The position numbers and the translations under genes are program-made. This document shows, piece after piece, positions 6,880 to 32,897 of a stretch of 39,702 bases of DNA. This DNA is from Hysterium pulicare CBS 123377. Its lineage: Eukaryota > Ascomycota > Dothideomycetes > Hysteriales > Hysteriaceae. The stretch's first letter is position 1. Each line of letters begins with the position of its first letter. Below the pieces are notes generated by a model. It made no database searches. It saw nothing but the letters and a program-made list of their open reading frames with translations, and was not told the DNA's origin. The stretch is taken from assembly GCA_000467715.1 (NCBI GenBank), contig AJFK01001057.1:1-39702 (forward strand). The letters are read 5' to 3'.

Positions 6880-7580
6880 TGAGGGGTTGACTGACTGACT
6901 GCCTTTCGAAAGAGTAAAGCATAATCTCGCATGGGCAACTATTAGACCTACTCAGATTTGAATTACTTCACTCAATTCAAAGGTTCCTCAAGATAATCTC
7001 CAGCAGGGCTCTCGGGTCTAAGCTACGGTTAGTTAAATCTCCTCCTGAATTGCTAAAACCTTTCTGCTTTTCCGCTTTAAATAGACTTTGAATAAAACCA
7101 CTTTCGCACCTCCATATACTTTTGATTCCACGACGTTGAGCTGCAGCCTTTCTGAGATTCCTAATCTTCATGGTATCTATCATCGATACCAAACGCGACA
7201 TATCTTTCATTCTCTTCCGTAGTTGCCCTTCAGACTGACCCTTTATTTAAGATGAGGGATCTTAAGACTATTTTGTAATCCGCTCCTCTGGTTTTGCGCC
7301 GTGGCGGTACGGTGGATTATTGGGTGGCTGACCCTGTGGCGTCCTGCCTCACCAATCCGGAACTGATCTACGTATGCGAGACCTTCACCGGAAAAGCCTT
7401 CGCTCAGAGTGTTGCATTGTGATGTCTACTTATAGGCTGCTAGATTGTCCCACATATGGAACCTCACATGTCCACTTTCTGATGTATTCATAAGTGACAT
7501 ATCTACGGATTCGAGGCATCGAGAAAACCTTCCGCAAGTCATATGTTTTAGTTGGTTGTTCAAATTCCAAGGAGCCTAAA
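6880..7580. other. Intergenic between RING and HET genes
   Basis: No gene supported. A 77-codon minus-strand ORF starting with ATG at 7210 is basic and unrecognised. A short run of GACT repeats follows the RING gene stop. The part before 7581 is open in the HET gene frame from 7494, but I treat it as leader. Confidence 0.45.
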
Positions 7581-9629
7581 ATGTCTATCCAATTCTCTGA
7601 AAATGACATAGACCCAGCAATTTCAGATGTGGAAATTTGCGAGAGCACCTTTTCCACCCTCGACCATCAGGATCGGTACTCCCTTCTACCTCTAGATCGA
7701 GCAAAGCGTGAGCTTCGACTCCTCCAGCTGCTGCCAGGCCAAAGCTCGGACCCTATCGCATGTAAACTCTACCTCGTTTCCCGCAATGATGGCCCGATAT
7801 ACTCTGCGCTTTCGTATACGTGGGGCGACAAAACGCAGGGGTCTCCAATCACTGTGAACGGCCAGGAATGGTTTGTGATGGAAAACCTGTTCTCAGCGCT
7901 TCTGCATCTGAGGGATGAGAAGGAGCCCCTCACACTTTTTGTGGATGCAATATGCATCGACCAGAGGAACGACGAGGAGAAGAGTTGGCACGTACAGCAG
8001 ATGCGAGAGACGTTCAAGGAAGCCCATCAAGTTCTTGCTTGGCTGGGGCCGAGCTCAGAGGGATCTGACGCTGCAATTCGCATGCTTCAACGCATCGGAG
8101 AAGCTGCTTCAGCCCTGGGTTCTCCGCGTGCCATCTGGGGTAATGACATTTCTGCAACAGTGGTGAAGTATTACGCGAAGGCCATGGAGGATGCAAACTC
8201 AGTTCCAGGGAGCATTCAGAGAGAGACAGCGCCCGGCGATACAAGCACCGGGGACAAGTTAAACGATCTATTCGGAGATATTGTCACAAAGAACGAACAA
8301 GGTCTTCATTTCCTCGAGCCTGCGACGCGTGACATCTTCAGCCGGCCATGGTGGAAGCGGGTGTGGGTCGTGCAAGAGCTAGCTGTCTCTAACAACATTG
8401 AGATGGTATGCGGACACGTCCGGATCCCTCAGGACATCATGGCTGTCGCTGCACAGCTGTACTACCAGTACCCACACGAGGCCAATGAAGAAAAGCAGTT
8501 GTCAAGCCAGAACCGGATATACGATCACATTACCTCACCAATCGCCATAATCCAGCAGGCCATGTATGCGCAATTCACTGTGCGATGGGGTCACCTTAAC
8601 TGGTCTAAAACCCCAGGCCTCCCGCTTGCGTTCCTGCTGTCTTCAACGTTCGCGTACGGAGGTACCCGAGTTCTAGAAGCATCGGATCCACGAGACTATG
8701 TATTCGCACTGCTGGGCTTAGCCACGGACTCGGACGAGTTAGGAGTGGCACCAGATTACTCGAGGTCGAATGCTGCAGTTTACATCGACATTGCCCGGGC
8801 CTTCATCAAGCACGGAGATAGCATCGTGTTGTCTTGGTGCAGATCACAAAACCGCGCTCTAGATTATCTGCCGTCCTGGGTGCCGGATCTCGCCCACAAG
8901 ATACATAGGCCTTTCCAATGGGTTGTGTACTCGGCCGCTACTGACAAATTCATTCTAGAGCCTGGATACAATGCCTCACGGGGACTTAAGCAGCTGGAGA
9001 CTATTTTGGCAGATGTTGGATCCGAAATAATCCTACACTTGCAGGGTGTTTTTATAGATTCAATCAAGATATGCGGTACTTCTTGGGAGGAGCTCTACCA
9101 AAGGAACATCCCGGAGCCCGAATTGCCCGCTCGAATCTGTGTCCGCTGGTTGAAGGAGCTGAAAATGACTGTCGAAGATATGGCCTCGAGCGAGATATGC
9201 GGAGATCAAGAGCAAAAGATGCAGGCTGTCTGGCGAACTTCGGTTGCCGACTTATCAATGACACCGGCGTGGGAGAAGTCTCGATGGCATGGCGATCTTC
9301 CCGATTCCTTTGTAGAGATGTACCACCGTGGTTTTCCGTACGATCGGATGTTGGAAGATGAAGGTTTCAAGGCACATTTCATGGTCATGGATGCGGTGAA
9401 TATCGCGAGGCGACCGTTTGTTACGTCAAAAGGGTATGTTGGTTTGGGTCCGATTGATTTACTTCCTTCTGATGATGTTGTTGTCTTCTGTGGAGTTGAG
9501 ATGCCTTTTATTGTTAGAAAAGGGGAAGATGGCAAACTGAGGCTTGTGGGAGATGCGTATGTCCATGGACTTATGGACGGAATCCCATCTATGCAAGATC
9601 AGGTTATCGAGAAGTTCGAACTGTATTAG
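7581..9629 (+). CDS. HET-domain protein (heterokaryon incompatibility family)
   Basis: Intronless gene for 682 residues. The N-terminal HET domain (PF06985 family) begins near residue 74 with YSALSYTWGD. It continues through the typical block with LFVDAICIDQ and the stretch around VLAWLGP, and a later RPWWKRVWVVQEL block closes the domain. The C-terminus (AYVHGLMDG, ending FELY) is also typical of fungal HET proteins. Members take part in nonself recognition between fungal individuals and in cell death after fusion; most copies have no known partner. I prefer the ATG at 7581 over 7494 because the 29 extra residues are basic and unlike the family. No NACHT, ankyrin or WD repeats follow, so it is a HET domain with a family-typical C-terminal region of unknown role. 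Confidence 0.92.
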   Translation: MSIQFSENDIDPAISDVEICESTFSTLDHQDRYSLLPLDRAKRELRLLQLLPGQSSDPIACKLYLVSRNDGPIYSALSYTWGDKTQGSPITVNGQEWFVMENLFSALLHLRDEKEPLTLFVDAICIDQRNDEEKSWHVQQMRETFKEAHQVLAWLGPSSEGSDAAIRMLQRIGEAASALGSPRAIWGNDISATVVKYYAKAMEDANSVPGSIQRETAPGDTSTGDKLNDLFGDIVTKNEQGLHFLEPATRDIFSRPWWKRVWVVQELAVSNNIEMVCGHVRIPQDIMAVAAQLYYQYPHEANEEKQLSSQNRIYDHITSPIAIIQQAMYAQFTVRWGHLNWSKTPGLPLAFLLSSTFAYGGTRVLEASDPRDYVFALLGLATDSDELGVAPDYSRSNAAVYIDIARAFIKHGDSIVLSWCRSQNRALDYLPSWVPDLAHKIHRPFQWVVYSAATDKFILEPGYNASRGLKQLETILADVGSEIILHLQGVFIDSIKICGTSWEELYQRNIPEPELPARICVRWLKELKMTVEDMASSEICGDQEQKMQAVWRTSVADLSMTPAWEKSRWHGDLPDSFVEMYHRGFPYDRMLEDEGFKAHFMVMDAVNIARRPFVTSKGYVGLGPIDLLPSDDVVVFCGVEMPFIVRKGEDGKLRLVGDAYVHGLMDGIPSMQDQVIEKFELY

Positions 9630-13616: not shown

Positions 13617-15598
13617 ATGACGCTTTTCATCTTATCCGAGACCAGGTACTACTCAGCCTCTATTTGGAAAACCCGCATCTCTAATATCATCATCATAGCG
13701 CGGGGTATGCGCTATTCAAAGCCAAAGATAAGAAACTTCTCAAACGTGATACCCTCGTCGACGATTTAGCTACTCCAGAGGGCGCCGCGAGCTCGTTGAA
13801 GCTCAAGAAATTCATCGTACGTCCTTCCAACCATATAGCAATGCGTAGATGGACTAACCGATTCCTTCGCGTAGAAATACGAAAATGCAGCAACCGCCTT
13901 AAACGAGACAGCAGCGTTGGTCGAGGGCAAAGTCTCACCAATGCTCACGAACCTGCTGAATGAAATCAAAGATGAAACCAAAGCATCGCTGGCAGTTGCA
14001 GATCCAAAGTTGGGCAATGCCATCACTAAAATACCAGGGCTCACCCTCAAGCCAATCTCCGACTCCACGACCTCTGAAGTCTACCGAGCTATTCGCTCCC
14101 ACATGACCTCTCTTATCCCTGGTTTACTCCCCTCCGATGTCAACACAATGGCTCTCGGTCTATCACACTCTTTGTCCCGTCATAAATTGAAGTTTTCACC
14201 CGATAAAGTCGACACCATGATCGTACAGGCTATTACGCTTTTGGATGATATGGACAAGGAGCTGAACACTTATGCGATGCGAGTTAAGGAATGGTATGGG
14301 TGGCACTTCCCAGAGCTTGCGAAGCTACTGAATGACAATCTTGCCTACGCTCGTGTTGTCATGACCATGGGCCATCGTACGAAGGCCTCAAGCGCAGATC
14401 TCTCAGTAAGCCACCTCTTCCACGATCCCCTTATCACGATAACTGCTAACTAGCCCAAGACCATTCTTCCTGAAGAAATCGAAACTGCTGTTAAAGCCGC
14501 TGCGGAAGTCTCCATGGGTACCGAAATCACTGACGAAGATTTGGACACCATACAGCATCTGGCCGACCAAGTCGTAGAACTCACCGATTACCGAGCGCAG
14601 CTCTCGGAGTACCTAACGTCACGAATGAATGCTATCGCACCCAATCTTACATCCCTAGTGGGCGAGCTTGTAGGCGCTCGCCTCATCGCTCATGCAGGAT
14701 CCTTGATGAACCTTGCGAAATCGCCAGGTTCTACAATCCAGATCCTTGGAGCAGAGAAGGCTTTATTCAGAGCTTTGAAGACCAAACATGATACCCCCAA
14801 ATACGGAGTAAGTCTCCATCGAAATCTTTTTGTTGCAGATGGGAACTAATTCACTCAAAGCTCATCTACCACGCATCCCTTATCGGCCAAGCAACAGGCA
14901 AGAACAAAGGCAAGGTAGCCCGCATGCTCGCCTCTCGATCCGCCCTCGGTATCAGAATCGATTCGCTGGCCGACTGGGGCGCTGACCGCGAAGGTACTGG
15001 TGCCGAACCTACAGAAGAAGAGAAATCCGCATGGGGCCGTGGCGCACGAGCACGCCTAGAACAGAGACTACGTGGACTAGAAGGCAAACCGATTAGAATG
15101 AAGGAAACGGGTATCCCCGCACCAATGCCAACAGGCGCGAAATGGGAGGTCAAGGAGGCTAGGAAATACAATCCTGACGCGGATGGATTAACGGGCGATG
15201 AGCCAGCTGCCAAGAGAGTCAAGGTGAATGGTACTCTCGCTAGTACGAGCAAGAAACCCATGATCCAGGAAGTGCCGGATGAAGACGAGTCGGAGGACGA
15301 AGAAGCATCGGAGTCGGAAGATGAGATGGACGTGGATAAGAAGAATAATGGCGAGTTAAGTAAGGCTGAGCGCAAAGCATTGAAGAAAGTCGAGAAAGAA
15401 GCGAAGGCTGCGAGAAAGGCTGAACGGGCAGCAAAGAGGGATGCTAAGGCTGCGAAGAAAGCAGCAAAGGAGGCAAAGAGCGCTGCCAAGGAGGGGAAGA
15501 AGAGCAAAGAAGCGGACAGCCTGGAAGGCAAGAAGAGGAAGCGAGACGATAATGTCGAGAAGTCGGAGAAAAAGAAGAAGAAGAAGAGCAAGGCGTAG
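13617..15598 (+). CDS. NOP58: Nucleolar protein Nop58 (box C/D snoRNP core)
   Basis: Five exons: 13617-13645, 13699-13816, 13875-14405, 14460-14807 and 14861-15598. The introns are about 53-58 nt with GTACTA, GTACGT, GTAAGC and GTAAGT donors. All phases close, giving 587 residues, the usual length. The product starts [16 protein letters not shown], very like known Nop58. The NOP domain signature [13 protein letters not shown] and the block [14 protein letters not shown] are intact. The C-terminus (about residue 450 on) is an acidic patch followed by a Lys/Glu/Ala-rich tail with KKE-type repeats, as in yeast Nop58. Nop58 pairs with Nop56, fibrillarin and Snu13 to guide 2'-O-methylation and pre-rRNA processing in the nucleolus. 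The fourth exon may start six bases earlier (AG at 14453), which would add Pro-Lys. The first coding exon is only 29 nt. Convergent with RPC9. Confidence 0.95.
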
Positions 15599-20516: not shown

Positions 20517-23500
20517 TCAGAGGTCTCGTAGGTTCGCAAACTCAAACGAAGGTAAACCTGGTTCAGCCGAGACAGCAACCCTTGGAAGCTCCTCCACCTT
20601 CTCCTCCCTCTCGCTTTTGATTCTCCAGCCTGCCTTCGCGTCCTCTTCCACGACTACAATATCCACTTCTTTGAGCTTTGGCACTGCCGCCCTTAGCCCT
20701 GGCGCCAGCTCTCCCAACACTTTGACCTCATCAAACCCCAGGTCCCTCTCGAAAACCACGTTTGGCGGCTCCCCAGACTCTAACCTCCGTTTGACACCCT
20801 GAATGAACGGCATTGCTTTCTTCATATCGGCTTTATCAATCTTCTTGCTCACCATTTTGACATCCAGCGCAATGCCATCGAACATCTCACGTACGAGTTC
20901 GACGTACTTAACTTGCCAAGCAGGCCATGACTTTGCAACGAAGACGGTCAACCGCTTGGTTTGTTTTGGGTCGTAACGGACTTCTTTGCCCTTTGCGAGG
21001 CGTTTCTGTTGTACACTGTCCGCGGCACTAACAGCGGCTAAGGTCGAGCGGATATAATTTGATATTGCGGTGAGGGAAAGATCAGGTTCAGTTACTCGGG
21101 GGAAAGGAATGATTTGGATTGTTGATGGCTTGATAAATGATTGGTCAGTATTGTCTTTTGCTAGTGGGTGTAAAGATAGTCCACGTAGTCAATAAATCAG
21201 GGAGCTAGAACGTCATACCTTGTTCAAAACCTCTCTCCAGATGTGGTCTGCCCAGTGGGGGGCAATAACACAGATCATCTGTGCCTGAAGCTCAACATAG
21301 CGGCGCACACACTCATAGTGCATGCCGATAGATGCGGAGGCAGTAGATACACGGTAGCTATCGCGTGCTGCAGTGAAGTCATAGAATCCTGATTTAAGGG
21401 CGGCTTTATAGTTTGTCCTGTAGTAATATCAGCAAATGTGATCCCCCACTGACATAAATGCACTCACGCTTCGAATTGCTGAACTGTCTCTCGAACAAGA
21501 ACATTCAATTCGTTCTCAAATAGCTCATCCCAAAACAGTCTTGGTCCCGTCCTCTGGATGACCTCGGCATTCCTGACCCGCTCTGCCCCACGAACCTTGC
21601 TGTGTTCCTCACCACTTTTGAGAACACGTACTCCTGTATATACCTCTTCAATCCACTTTCGGAGCTCGTAGAGCTTCAGAATGATTGCATTCGCAACGGT
21701 TTCTTCAAAGTTCGCGTCTTCAACACCATCGCCTCCATCCGCAAGGGCAATTCTTGTTGCATCTGCTCCGAACTTTTTAATTGCAGCGTCTAGAGTAAGG
21801 AAATTGCCGGTGCTCTTGCTCATTTTGCTGCCGTTCAAGGTAACGTGGCCATTGATCCTGATCCCCTTGGGTAGAAATTGTGGTGCGGACTTGCCCCATA
21901 GAGCTTGATGGATATATAGAAAGAAAATCAAATGATTGGTAATCAAGTCCTTGCCGCTGATACGGACGTCCAGTGGATACCAATAAGTAAATTCTCTCCT
22001 CATGGCTTCCAAGACGTCTTTATCAATATCCGTCTCAACTTCGTTTTGGATAGCAAAGACGTAATCCCACACCCCATCAGTCATCTGCGATGCCTGAATG
22101 TTCCCAATCCCAGGCCGGGTTCCGTATATATTAGAATGGAGGTAGTGGGCAATGGTATAGTATGCCATGTAGATGGTAGAGTCGGATAAACCTTCCACTA
22201 GTTCAGATGGATCCCAGGGCAGCTTCGTACCAAGGCCATATTGTCGAGTGACGCACCACTGGGACAACCAGGCTAAAGTTTGCTCGATAGCATTCTTCGT
22301 CGCAGGGGTGAAGGAATTAAAGTTTTGCCCGTCTTCACCACGGACATGTCCGAGGACGTCGTCTCTCCATGCCTCATCAACATTACCATAGGTCAAAAAC
22401 CATTGGTCCAAGTACGCCGCAACGCATTCGTCACCAGATCTCGATATTGCCAAGCCATCAGGCTCGCAGTATATGATTGCATCGTTAGAGTCGAGCAGGC
22501 TCTGTCGGACGAGGTTTTTGGCATCCTGGACCAACTTGCCCGCGAAATCGCCGACTATTAGCCTTCCCTGGTAGAAACCCAATTTGTAGGCTTGCTCTTT
22601 CGCCTCTGCTAACTGCTGAACACTTTTCGGAGAAATGATGTTCATCTTCTTGACTAAGGTGGGAGCAATTAAATTACCGAAGCCAGGCGTTTCAATGATA
22701 GGTGAGAGATCCAGAGAAACCCATTCCGACTTAATCCCGTAGAAGTCCGCTTTTTTAGACAATTCTACTATCATGGCATAATCGTCTGGGCTGTCCGACG
22801 GTACAGAGGTAACGACACCGGTTCCCTTGGCTTCCTTGATGGTAGGCATTGGAACGACATAGACATCCCGCTGTCGGCTCATCGGAGCACCGACTATAGA
22901 TCCAATCACATCAGATCCACTCAGTTCTGCTATCTTGCGGAAAGTTCCCCACTGTGGGAAAATGCCCTGGAAAGCCATATTGCGAGCAGCTCTATCGGTG
23001 ACAAAGAAAAAGTCTTTGTCCGAAACATGGAAGATGCCGTAGACAATCTGAGGAGAGACAAAGAGATTGGTTTGTCCGTACATTGTTTCGGGCCGGAGAG
23101 TAGCCGGAACCATGTATACGTTGGCATCACTTGGGAGCTTTTCCGACAGAATCTGTTGTGCTTGTCTAGACCATTCCTTCACCTTGCATTTGAGAGCGGT
23201 GTATTCTTGCACTCGAACTGTCTCTCCCTCAGATCGGTCATGATCCAGACAAGGCTGACGGTCCTTTGGAGAATATATAGAATGTCGCTTTCCGAACTGA
23301 ATCTTTCCAAGCTCTTTCAGTCGTCTCATCTGCCATTGGATGAATGAGTCGTAATATGGATTCGCATCAGTAGTAATGAAGCTACGTCTCCAGTCAATTG
23401 CACAACCGAACTCAGTAAAGTGTTCTTGCCACAGTCGTGGGAAATAATGTAACCAATATTGAGAATCGGCAAATTTGTGTATCTCTGTTCGGGGGATACC

Positions 23501-24260
23501 TAACGACAGCATGACCTGGAATTGGTATTTGGTCTTGATGGTCTTCAGAGCGGCTTTTCCTGGGGCGGAGTTAAGTTTAAAGCCAAGACGTATACAAAGC
23601 ATTTCTACCTTTGCGGACATTGGTGAATTTGGTGACATCTTCCCTCGTCTGTGCTTGCGTTGGATTGGAAGGCGGAGCCTCGTCCTCGACGTTGGTCTCT
23701 TTGTAATCTTCAAAAGTTTTACCGAACATGGCGATTTCGTGAACAAGCTTATCCGCACACGCTTTTATTGGCATACCAGTGGCGTGATAACCTTGAGGGT
23801 ACAAAGTTCGTTTCCCTTGGGCTCTGGCAACACGACTCGCAAATTCTATTTTTGACATAGTGAAAGCATGACCTAAATGTGGGGACCCGTTAACGTATCT
23901 ATCTTGGTCAGCTCGTCCCCGGATTTAAGTAAAAAGGTTTCATTTACGGATATGCCATTGTCCCTTTCAAGATTAGCTGAACTCTGCAAAACCAAGTTTA
24001 AAACATACCGAAAAATTTGGGAAACTGAGCTCGCAACTCGTCATGGGTTATTGACCCCGGGGGATATTCTGAACACGACGGGGCATCAGACTCGAATATC
24101 CTCTCATCCTGCCACAACTTTTGATATATCTTTTCAGTCGACTGTAGGGTGTCTCTCTTCTCGGTCTGCACACCATCTATTAGCGGCCGTTGAAGGGCTC
24201 AGGAAAGGATACTACATTTTCAATTTTCATGGTACCGTGAGAACTGTGGTTTGGATCCAT
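20517..24260 (-). CDS. CDC60: Leucyl-tRNA synthetase, cytosolic
   Basis: Seven exons: 24260-24236, 24176-24009, 23963-23948, 23898-23609, 23559-21468, 21417-21219 and 21128-20517. Introns are 45-90 nt, all GT-AG. All phases close, giving 1133 residues, near the usual length of the archaeal/eukaryotic-type enzyme. It charges tRNA-Leu with leucine in the cytosol. The class I signature is PHLGH at residues 76-80, preceded by GTMAYPYVNGS. The substrate-site block [16 protein letters not shown] follows. The editing (CP1) insertion includes [17 protein letters not shown], and the second signature is KMSKS near residue 745. The C-terminal anticodon-binding part includes [20 protein letters not shown]. 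Exon 3 is a 16-nt micro-exon encoding part of GTMAYP in the active site. The N-terminus ([10 protein letters not shown]...) has no mitochondrial presequence, which supports a cytosolic role. The join of exons 1 and 2 is the least certain. Confidence 0.93.
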
Positions 24261-32412: not shown

Positions 32413-32426
32413 TATATATATATAAT
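32413..32426 (+). promoter_or_regulatory. TATA element upstream of the tRNA gene
   Basis: A run of TA repeats ending TATAAT lies about 31 bases before the first base of the tRNA. Some fungi use such upstream TATA elements, together with the internal boxes, to place TFIIIB on tRNA genes. Confidence 0.5.
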
Positions 32427-32493
32427 AGTGCACAATAATCCTCAATCAGCATTACAGCATTGTTAGTTCAGTGGTAGAATATTTGCCTTCCAA

Positions 32494-32519
32494 ACGTTTG
32501 GATCTTCCCAACGTCGATA
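32494..32519 (+). other. Canonical tRNA intron in the anticodon loop, 26 nt
   Basis: It sits after position 37 or 38 of the tRNA (the border slides by one base), the standard site cut by the tRNA splicing endonuclease. Its TTTGGA word can pair with TCCAA of the anticodon loop, the usual anticodon-intron helix. Confidence 0.8.
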
Positions 32520-32527
32520 GCAAATGG

Positions 32528-32575
32528 GTACGTCGCACGATATCAGAGTTTAAGAATCTTGCTAACAAACAACAG
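32528..32575 (+). other. 48-nt GT-AG insertion in the tRNA variable loop
   Basis: It starts GTACGTCG, has GCTAAC with the branch A at 32565, and ends AACAG ten bases later. These features match the spliceosomal introns of neighbouring genes: NOP58 intron 2 also starts GTACGT, and lengths near 50 nt are usual here. Its removal rebuilds TGGC and a perfect T arm. The site is not one used by tRNA introns in fungi. Confidence 0.7.
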
Positions 32576-32603
32576 CTCGGGTTCGATTCCCGGACAATGC
32601 AAA

Positions 32604-32897
32604 ATGGTTTTTTTTGCACTCGTACTTGATATGGCCGCCGAATCTCATGTGCGACAATTATTTTGGGACTGGCTCAACTGGGACCGGAAATTGTACAAGA
32701 CATTGCTCGAAGCAAGCAATTTTAGGATCTTAGTGATGTCCGGGCCAACAGCCGAAGAGAGGATCCTGAAAGTATTTAGGATCGAGCTCCAGGATTTGAT
32801 TTTAAACTGTATTTCGGCTTGTGGTGACAGCCGCATTGATAAACGTTTATATCCGATCTTCAGTACTTCCGATGGGAGAAGACCTCGGAGACATTGA
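32604..32897 (+). CDS. Doubtful ORF downstream of the tRNA gene
   Basis: An ATG at 32604 opens 97 codons that look protein-like (VRQLFWDWLNWDRKLYKTLL) but match no family I can name. Its start overlaps the Pol III terminator, so a real gene would need another start, e.g. the ATG at 32631. It may be a gene fragment. Confidence 0.2.
   Translation: MVFFALVLDMAAESHVRQLFWDWLNWDRKLYKTLLEASNFRILVMSGPTAEERILKVFRIELQDLILNCISACGDSRIDKRLYPIFSTSDGRRPRRH
32608..32615 (+). terminator. RNA polymerase III terminator (T8)
   Basis: Eight T in a row on the coding strand, seven bases after the tRNA discriminator base, long enough for efficient Pol III release. Confidence 0.8.

Follow-up and report, generated by a model that had tools for sequence, protein, structure and literature searches.

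In the genome of the ascomycete Hysterium pulicare CBS 123377, the genes for tRNA-Gly(UCC) and tRNA-Leu(AAG) each carry an extra insert in addition to a canonical tRNA intron, and we conclude from the signals within these inserts that they are probably spliceosomal-type introns in tRNA genes transcribed by RNA polymerase III (Pol III), with at least two such cases in this one genome. We consider it quite likely that tRNA-Gly(UCC) is a working, probably single-copy nuclear Pol III gene exhibiting both a spliceosomal and an endonuclease-type intron, and that tRNA-Leu(AAG) likewise carries both kinds. The glycine gene lies in the window, by which we mean the whole stretch of 39,702 nucleotides that was analysed (contig AJFK01001057.1).

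Structure of the tRNA-Gly(UCC) gene

The Rfam model RF00005 matches the window at positions 32457-32601 of the forward strand with 46.5 bits (cut-off 29), and its alignment displays a 49-nt insertion downstream of the anticodon arm and upstream of the T arm. The parts of the gene and its flanking signals are the following (window positions):

32413..32424, + strand: TATA-like box at -44/-38 (motif)
32457..32601, + strand: tRNA-Gly(UCC) gene, whole (RF00005, 46.5 bits; ARAGORN after removal of the insert)
32457..32492, + strand: exon 1, acceptor 5' strand to nucleotide 37, anticodon UCC (deletion enumeration)
32493..32518, + strand: canonical 26-nt tRNA intron after position 37 (ARAGORN, enumeration)
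32519..32527, + strand: exon 2, nucleotide 38, 3' strand of the anticodon stem and variable-loop nucleotides 1-3 (enumeration)
32528..32575, + strand: putative 48-nt spliceosomal-type intron GTACGT...GCTAAC...CAG in the variable loop (enumeration, intron model)
32561..32566, + strand: predicted branch site GCTAAC, its branch A (32565) lying 10 nt from the intron end (intron model)
32576..32601, + strand: exon 3, last variable nucleotide, T arm with the B box GGTTCGATTCC, acceptor 3' strand and A73
32608..32615, + strand: T8 run, Pol III terminator (motif)

When positions 32528-32575 are taken out, ARAGORN reads the remainder as tRNA-Gly(tcc) with complete stems of 7/4/5/5 pairs, some of them G-U, and with a variable loop of four nucleotides, TGGC, which equals in size the AGCC of the Gly-GCC gene of the same genome (L006). 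It also reads the same 26-nt anticodon-loop intron that the first-pass annotation of this DNA had described. With both pieces out, the features of a nuclear tRNA gene are all present: a UCC anticodon, A and B boxes and a complete cloverleaf. Within the canonical intron, C32 can form the A-I pair with the G at intron position -3; the leucine gene described below likewise has a canonical 37/38 intron, of 16 nt as compared to 26 nt, with the pair U32:A-3.

The first-pass annotation had further claimed that the stems are complete only once two segments are removed. An enumeration of deletions in the 145-nt gene bears this out: the rule was that 7/7, 4/4, 5/5 and 5/5 pairs, T33 and a variable loop of 4-5 nt had to result, and none of the single deletions of 8-99 nt yielded a class I tRNA with complete stems. 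Removal of the canonical intron together with a second deletion (30-80 nt tried) gave 17 working placements of the latter; those listed (12 of the 17) are 47-48 nt in length and lie in the same neighbourhood, and exactly one of the 17 starts with GT and ends with AG. The tRNA structure fixes the presence and the size of the insert, and its edges only roughly, because the variable loop is unpaired and all these placements are available before the GT..AG rule is applied; the first-pass annotation did not mention this caveat.

Intron character of the 48-nt insert

According to the first-pass annotation, the insert begins with GTACGT, contains GCTAAC and ends in CAG 10 nt after the branch A, as was confirmed on the sequence, and it was said to resemble the protein-gene introns of around 50 nt in the same window. 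For this comparison eight reference introns were measured, with in-frame protein across all of them, in NOP58 (a 587-aa reading frame; introns of 53, 58, 54 and 53 nt) and in the gene for the cytosolic leucyl-tRNA synthetase (LARS; introns A-D of 45, 49, 49 and 50 nt):

13646..13698, + strand: NOP58 intron 1, GTACTA..CTAAT..TAG
13817..13874, + strand: NOP58 intron 2, GTACGT..CTAAC..TAG
14406..14459, + strand: NOP58 intron 3
14808..14860, + strand: NOP58 intron 4
23964..24008, - strand: LARS intron A
23899..23947, - strand: LARS intron B
23560..23608, - strand: LARS intron C
21418..21467, - strand: LARS intron D

The lengths of these introns range from 45 to 58 nt, the distance from the branch A to the intron end from 9 to 17 nt, and their 5' sites are GTACTA, GTACGT, GTAAGC, GTAAGT, GTATGT, GTAAAT, GTAGAA and GTGAGT. 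The glycine insert falls within the reference range (48 nt, GTACGT, GCTAAC, 10 nt, CAG), which upholds the claimed resemblance, and its 5' site is identical to that of NOP58 intron 2, whose GTACGT start had been correctly noted. Of the 8,000 matches scored for NOP58 itself, the top ones in the listed best 120 come from Zopfia rhizophila (80%, covering 79% of the query) and from Delitschia confertaspora, which we both take to be Dothideomycetes. The window also contains a HET (heterokaryon-incompatibility) domain gene at 7494-9629 (+); this gene and the NOP58 matches mark the organism as a filamentous ascomycete.

A small, position-specific intron model, made from only the eight protein-gene introns, assigns the glycine insert a score of 19.2, compared to 12.0-19.3 for the eight training introns. 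Amongst 557,856 segments of 48 nt, taken from both strands of approximately 283 kb of genome, a single one scores at least as high as the insert, and this is the insert itself; the chance of such a match, multiplied by the 17 registers, is at most about 3e-5. The fold of the insert is no more stable than that of its shuffles (z +0.37). In 5' site, branch spacing and length, both this insert (48 nt) and that of the leucine gene (51 nt) agree with U2-type introns. A plain count of GT..branch..AG arrangements by length in the same DNA proved too noisy to use: there is a modest excess at 50-59 nt (37, compared to 23 in the reversed control) and none at 45-49 nt (11, compared to 12).

The tRNA-Leu(AAG) gene

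The leucine gene is located on contig C244 (L052:861-1009; a 149-nt tRNA match of 38.0 bits) and was discovered by a B-box and tRNA scan that did not make use of any intron signal. Since it was the B box and the tRNA fold that led to this gene, its intron signals serve as an independent check. Removal of 51 nt, GTCAGT...TTTCTAAC...CACAG, leaves a textbook tRNA-Leu(AAG): its anticodon stem is CCAGG/CCTGG, its variable arm is of class II and its canonical intron measures 16 nt. The insert is located inside the anticodon stem, between positions 28 and 29, and enumeration with two deletions affords four placements of the second deletion, only the 51-nt one of which is GT..AG. Its signals comprise GTCAGT, a TCTAAC branch site with the branch A 12 nt before the end, and a terminal CAG. 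The 5' site is weak, having a C at +3 that is found in none of the eight reference introns, and the model score is 14.4, which the insert itself and 23 others, or 24 of the 557,364 segments of 51 nt, attain. As for the glycine gene, the insert does not fold better than shuffles (z +1.05). In the minimum-energy fold of the gene lacking the insert and retaining the canonical intron, the D and anticodon arms are absent. Of the tRNA loci retrieved from the genome, 17 stretches, one of them (in L020) doubtful, pass a strict test on the T stem, the acceptor stem and the A box; this test misses some real tRNAs (e.g. L011, L014 and L017). In 15 of these 17 stretches, G53 lies 50-87 nt from the first nucleotide, and only Gly-UCC (124 nt) and Leu-AAG (128 nt) have longer distances.

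Both genes could also be read as exhibiting one long anticodon-loop intron each, of 67 nt in the glycine and 71 nt in the leucine gene. This is how ARAGORN, which permits one intron only, interprets the raw sequences when introns are allowed (with its bacterial default settings, it reports no tRNA in the window). With the 67-nt intron, however, the anticodon stem of the glycine tRNA has a T-T mismatch, its variable loop grows to 11 nt, and position -3 of the intron holds a T that cannot pair with C32; in case of the leucine gene, the 71-nt intron also leaves a mismatched stem, and the result is labelled Arg(CCU), at odds with the rest of the molecule, which is that of a class II Leu tRNA. With no single deletion completing the stems in either gene (enumeration on Leu-AAG gave no solutions), we find one long intron barely credible. 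Two introns per gene, one canonical and one putatively spliceosomal, remain the preferred reading.

The endonuclease might nonetheless be responsible for both introns, were the extra inserts non-canonical tRNA introns of the bulge-helix-bulge (BHB) kind, comparable to those of archaea and some algae. In archaea, introns are found at many positions, including 29/30 and 45/46, and further examples exist in nucleomorphs and Cyanidioschyzon, as stated in the excerpted text of a review (PMC4090602). The BHB motif was taken as a central helix of 4 bp, flanked on either side by a bulge of 3 nt at the splice site, plus an outer helix. For the glycine insert no such motif was found, the central helix being 0/4 in both registers and the outer helix 2/4. 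The leucine insert reached 2/4 in the central helix, which equals the canonical introns of these genes (2/4 each) and hence separates the classes poorly, and only 1/4 in the outer helix, compared to 4/4 in both canonical introns. Neither insert has structure beyond that of shuffles, and both possess splice-site and branch signals, for which the BHB class has no need. Endonuclease cutting of the extra inserts thus appears to be argued against, clearly in the glycine and only partly in the leucine gene, and we hold BHB introns to be very unlikely; spliceosomal-type introns are probably the better description of both inserts.

A further possibility concerns origin and would be compatible with spliceosomal removal: the inserts could be introner-like elements, as have been described in fungi, in which case members of a multiplying family of introns would have landed in the tRNA genes by chance. 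The first 24 nt of the glycine insert, with up to three mismatches allowed, match only themselves in the 37.2 Mb of the assembly; having no near genomic copy of its start, the insert is not a recent introner. By eye, the glycine and leucine inserts share splice signals only. We attach very little probability to such an origin, although that of an old and diverged introner is conceivable.

Survey of tRNA genes in the assembly

A search of the assembly (37.2 Mb, 596 contigs) with RF00005, in which 63 of 1,229 candidates were scored, returned 20 matches. The B-box pattern GGTTCGANTCC matched 55 places, compared to 73 in the control; each of these places was either a tRNA known beforehand or was analysed by means of ARAGORN or cmscan. 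Searches for CTAAC..AG..GTTCRANTC showed no excess (58 and 49 rows, with 70 and 78 in the controls): each list contains one of the two known genes, nine places are common to both, and the other 105 rows were judged as strings, save for two (L044 and L055), in which no tRNA was found. Patterns combining A box and B box gave 23 and 84 rows, compared to 10 and 103 in the controls, with some tRNA-like matches. A search of a plasmid collection, where fungal records are not expected, gave no match.

Altogether, around 20 tRNA genes were assigned, some by eye against the ARAGORN label; each isoacceptor was encountered once and approximately 14 genes have an anticodon-loop intron, which suggests, from this part of the set, a small and intron-rich tRNA complement for a 37-Mb genome. 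Two Val-AAC-like matches (C44 and C465) were seen as strings only. In the tRNA-Thr(CGU) gene at L012:1501-1608, the anticodon-loop intron is about 36 nt by our own reading, compared to 16 nt by ARAGORN. Five matches (L019, L033, L096, L105 and L113) are tRNA-Asp-like; their anticodon arms vary or are broken, their upstream flanks are similar in part, and in L113 a long hairpin replaces the anticodon arm. L019 and L033 have neither a TATA-like box nor a T run nearby. These copies look like a tRNA-derived (SINE-like) repeat rather than working genes. Two related tRNA-like genes of ambiguous anticodon lie about 500 bp apart on contig C95 (L018, C95:48875-48961; L112, C95:49300-49500), and in the latter an additional inverted repeat extends the anticodon arm. 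Five U6 snRNA matches (L057-L061) differ from one another in their 5' and 3' parts, and the two lowest-scoring ones, L060 and L061, may be degenerate to judge from their sequences.

Copies, promoters and codons

A genome-wide listing of Gly-UCC genes had been proposed in the first-pass annotation, and two patterns with fixed spacing found no other such gene in the 37.2-Mb assembly of 596 contigs with gaps. The first pattern, from A box to anticodon with up to three mismatches, gave five matches (control: two), namely the window gene with no mismatch and four with three mismatches, Gly-CCC and Gly-GCC among them. The looser pattern gave 66 matches, including the window gene, and 66 in the control; of the remaining 65, 30 lie in loci without an ARAGORN tRNA and 35 were judged by the matched strings only. 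An uninterrupted Leu-AAG gene was not found by a pattern with one fixed D-loop spacing in the same gapped 37.2-Mb assembly: there were two matches with three mismatches, neither of which keeps the anticodon, compared to four in the control. A DNA search with the spliced glycine tRNA returned its own first exon only and missed Gly-GCC, rendering it unusable as evidence of absence.

Upstream and downstream signals are present in both genes: TATATA lies at -44/-38 and T8 at +7 in Gly-UCC, whose counterparts in Leu-AAG are ATATA at -38 and T9 at +39. Amongst 17 other tRNA genes examined, 11 possess a TATA-like box at -32 to -51 (there is no chance rate for such short motifs) and all 17 a run of at least five T within 60 nt downstream; three doubtful or Asp-like copies include no TATA-like box and one T run. 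Decoding of GGA needs a UCC anticodon under standard wobble rules, and GGA accounts for 5 of the 35 glycine codons in NOP58 and, in the portion of LARS that was counted, for 15 of 48. A Leu-AAG tRNA normally reads CUU, CUC and CUA via inosine.

That the glycine locus is a pseudogene appears unlikely because no other Gly-UCC gene was found, its TATA box and T8 run are intact and GGA codons are in use. The wider form of this explanation is that both genes are tRNA pseudogenes with random insertions, intact Gly-UCC and Leu-AAG genes being situated in unassembled gaps. With an assembly of 596 contigs, a gap could conceal an intact copy; the same genome does contain degenerate tRNA-like copies; and, according to the excerpted review (PMC4090602), short insertions in eukaryotic tRNA genes mostly affect one of many synonymous copies and are regarded as marking pseudogenes. 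On the other hand, all stems of Gly-UCC and Leu-AAG are intact apart from the insert, the patterns revealed no other copy of either gene, and both inserts carry 5', branch and 3' signals in the right order and spacing; furthermore, a TATA-like box and a T run accompany both genes and neither of the Asp-like L019 and L033, again with no chance rate for these motifs. We judge a pair of pseudogenes to be improbable, and the fallbacks named at the outset, pseudogene or assembly error, are disfavoured relative to two working genes with spliceosomal-type introns.

Proposed processing of the two precursors

In case of tRNA-Gly(UCC), the TATA box, the A and B boxes and the T8 run point to transcription of one precursor by Pol III. 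From its signals, the 48-nt insert would be a U2-type intron that leaves as a lariat via the spliceosome, joining TGG|CTC, whilst the position of the 26-nt intron after nucleotide 37 and the A-I pair suggest that it would be cut by the tRNA endonuclease and sealed by ligase. The first-pass annotation had proposed that this tRNA may need both endonuclease and spliceosome, a proposal that gains support from the failure to find another Gly-UCC gene with the two patterns, from the promoter and terminator, which resemble those of other tRNA genes, and from the leucine gene with its insert of the same kind at another position. In tRNA-Leu(AAG), the 51-nt insert would likewise be removed by the spliceosome, with CC|AGG as the predicted junction, and this step would presumably precede the tRNA endonuclease, since the anticodon stem is absent until the insert leaves.

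It is rather probable, as judged from the gene sequences, that the spliceosome would here be an obligatory tRNA-processing machine: tRNA-Leu(AAG) and the tRNA that apparently alone is able to read GGA would be unable to fold before splicing, and the decoding of entire codon classes would depend on it. Other tRNAs of the lineage may also need the spliceosome. If true, two splicing systems would act on one precursor, and it could be examined directly whether Pol II, a cap or a long transcript is something the spliceosome depends on. It would also mean that tRNA finders permitting one anticodon-loop intron misread such genes, as seen in the Arg(CCU) label and the 67-nt glycine intron, and isoacceptors reported missing from fungal genomes might have the same cause.

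Comparison with known systems

To our knowledge, the introns of eukaryotic tRNAs are taken to be the domain of tRNA endonuclease and ligase. Both Gly-UCC and Leu-AAG have one canonical intron at 37/38 too; the extra inserts differ from it in their positions, 46/48 in the glycine and 28/29 in the leucine gene, and in having splice-site and branch signals. A close parallel in kind is found in fungal U6 snRNA genes, in which Tani and Ohshima reportedly described a spliceosomal intron in 1989 and Canzler et al. are said to have described spliceosomal introns in 2016. As proposed here for the tRNA genes, these are mRNA-type introns within a short, structured RNA gene transcribed by Pol III; unlike the tRNA genes, the host is a spliceosomal RNA and has no second, endonuclease-type intron. 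No U6 intron was detected in the same genome, where five U6 matches span the full model in 97-107 nt (47 of 2,278 candidates scored).

Fungal U3 snoRNA genes contain normal spliceosomal introns, almost exclusively in the most-5' stem-loop, and U3 and U6 are described as the only small structured RNAs so far known to be often interrupted by introns, both according to the excerpt of PMC5832005. U3 resembles the present genes in being a small structured RNA host, but it is a snoRNA and not a tRNA (PMC5832005, same excerpt). Spliceosomal introns are also carried by the rDNA of ascomycetes, lichen fungi included, as stated in the excerpts of PMC11889510 and PMC8527467, and yeast removed such lichen introns from Pol I rRNA transcripts (PMC8527467, excerpt), so that, as far as this excerpt goes, Pol II is not required for splicing. 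These rDNA introns share a non-mRNA host with the inserts described here, whereas theirs is a Pol I transcript of a repeated host gene.

More than one intron per tRNA gene, at positions that are in part similar, is known from archaea, nucleomorphs and Cyanidioschyzon; these non-canonical introns, however, are of the BHB type in archaea and apparently in Cyanidioschyzon, those of the Guillardia nucleomorph measure 3-24 nt, and GT-branch-AG signals are not mentioned in the excerpted text (PMC4090602). Among the open-licence PubMed Central matches listed, consisting mostly of titles and beginnings of abstracts, there is no report of a spliceosomal intron in a nuclear tRNA gene. Compared to these systems, what we rate as new is the class of host RNA in which mRNA-type introns probably occur, and their combination there with a tRNA intron.
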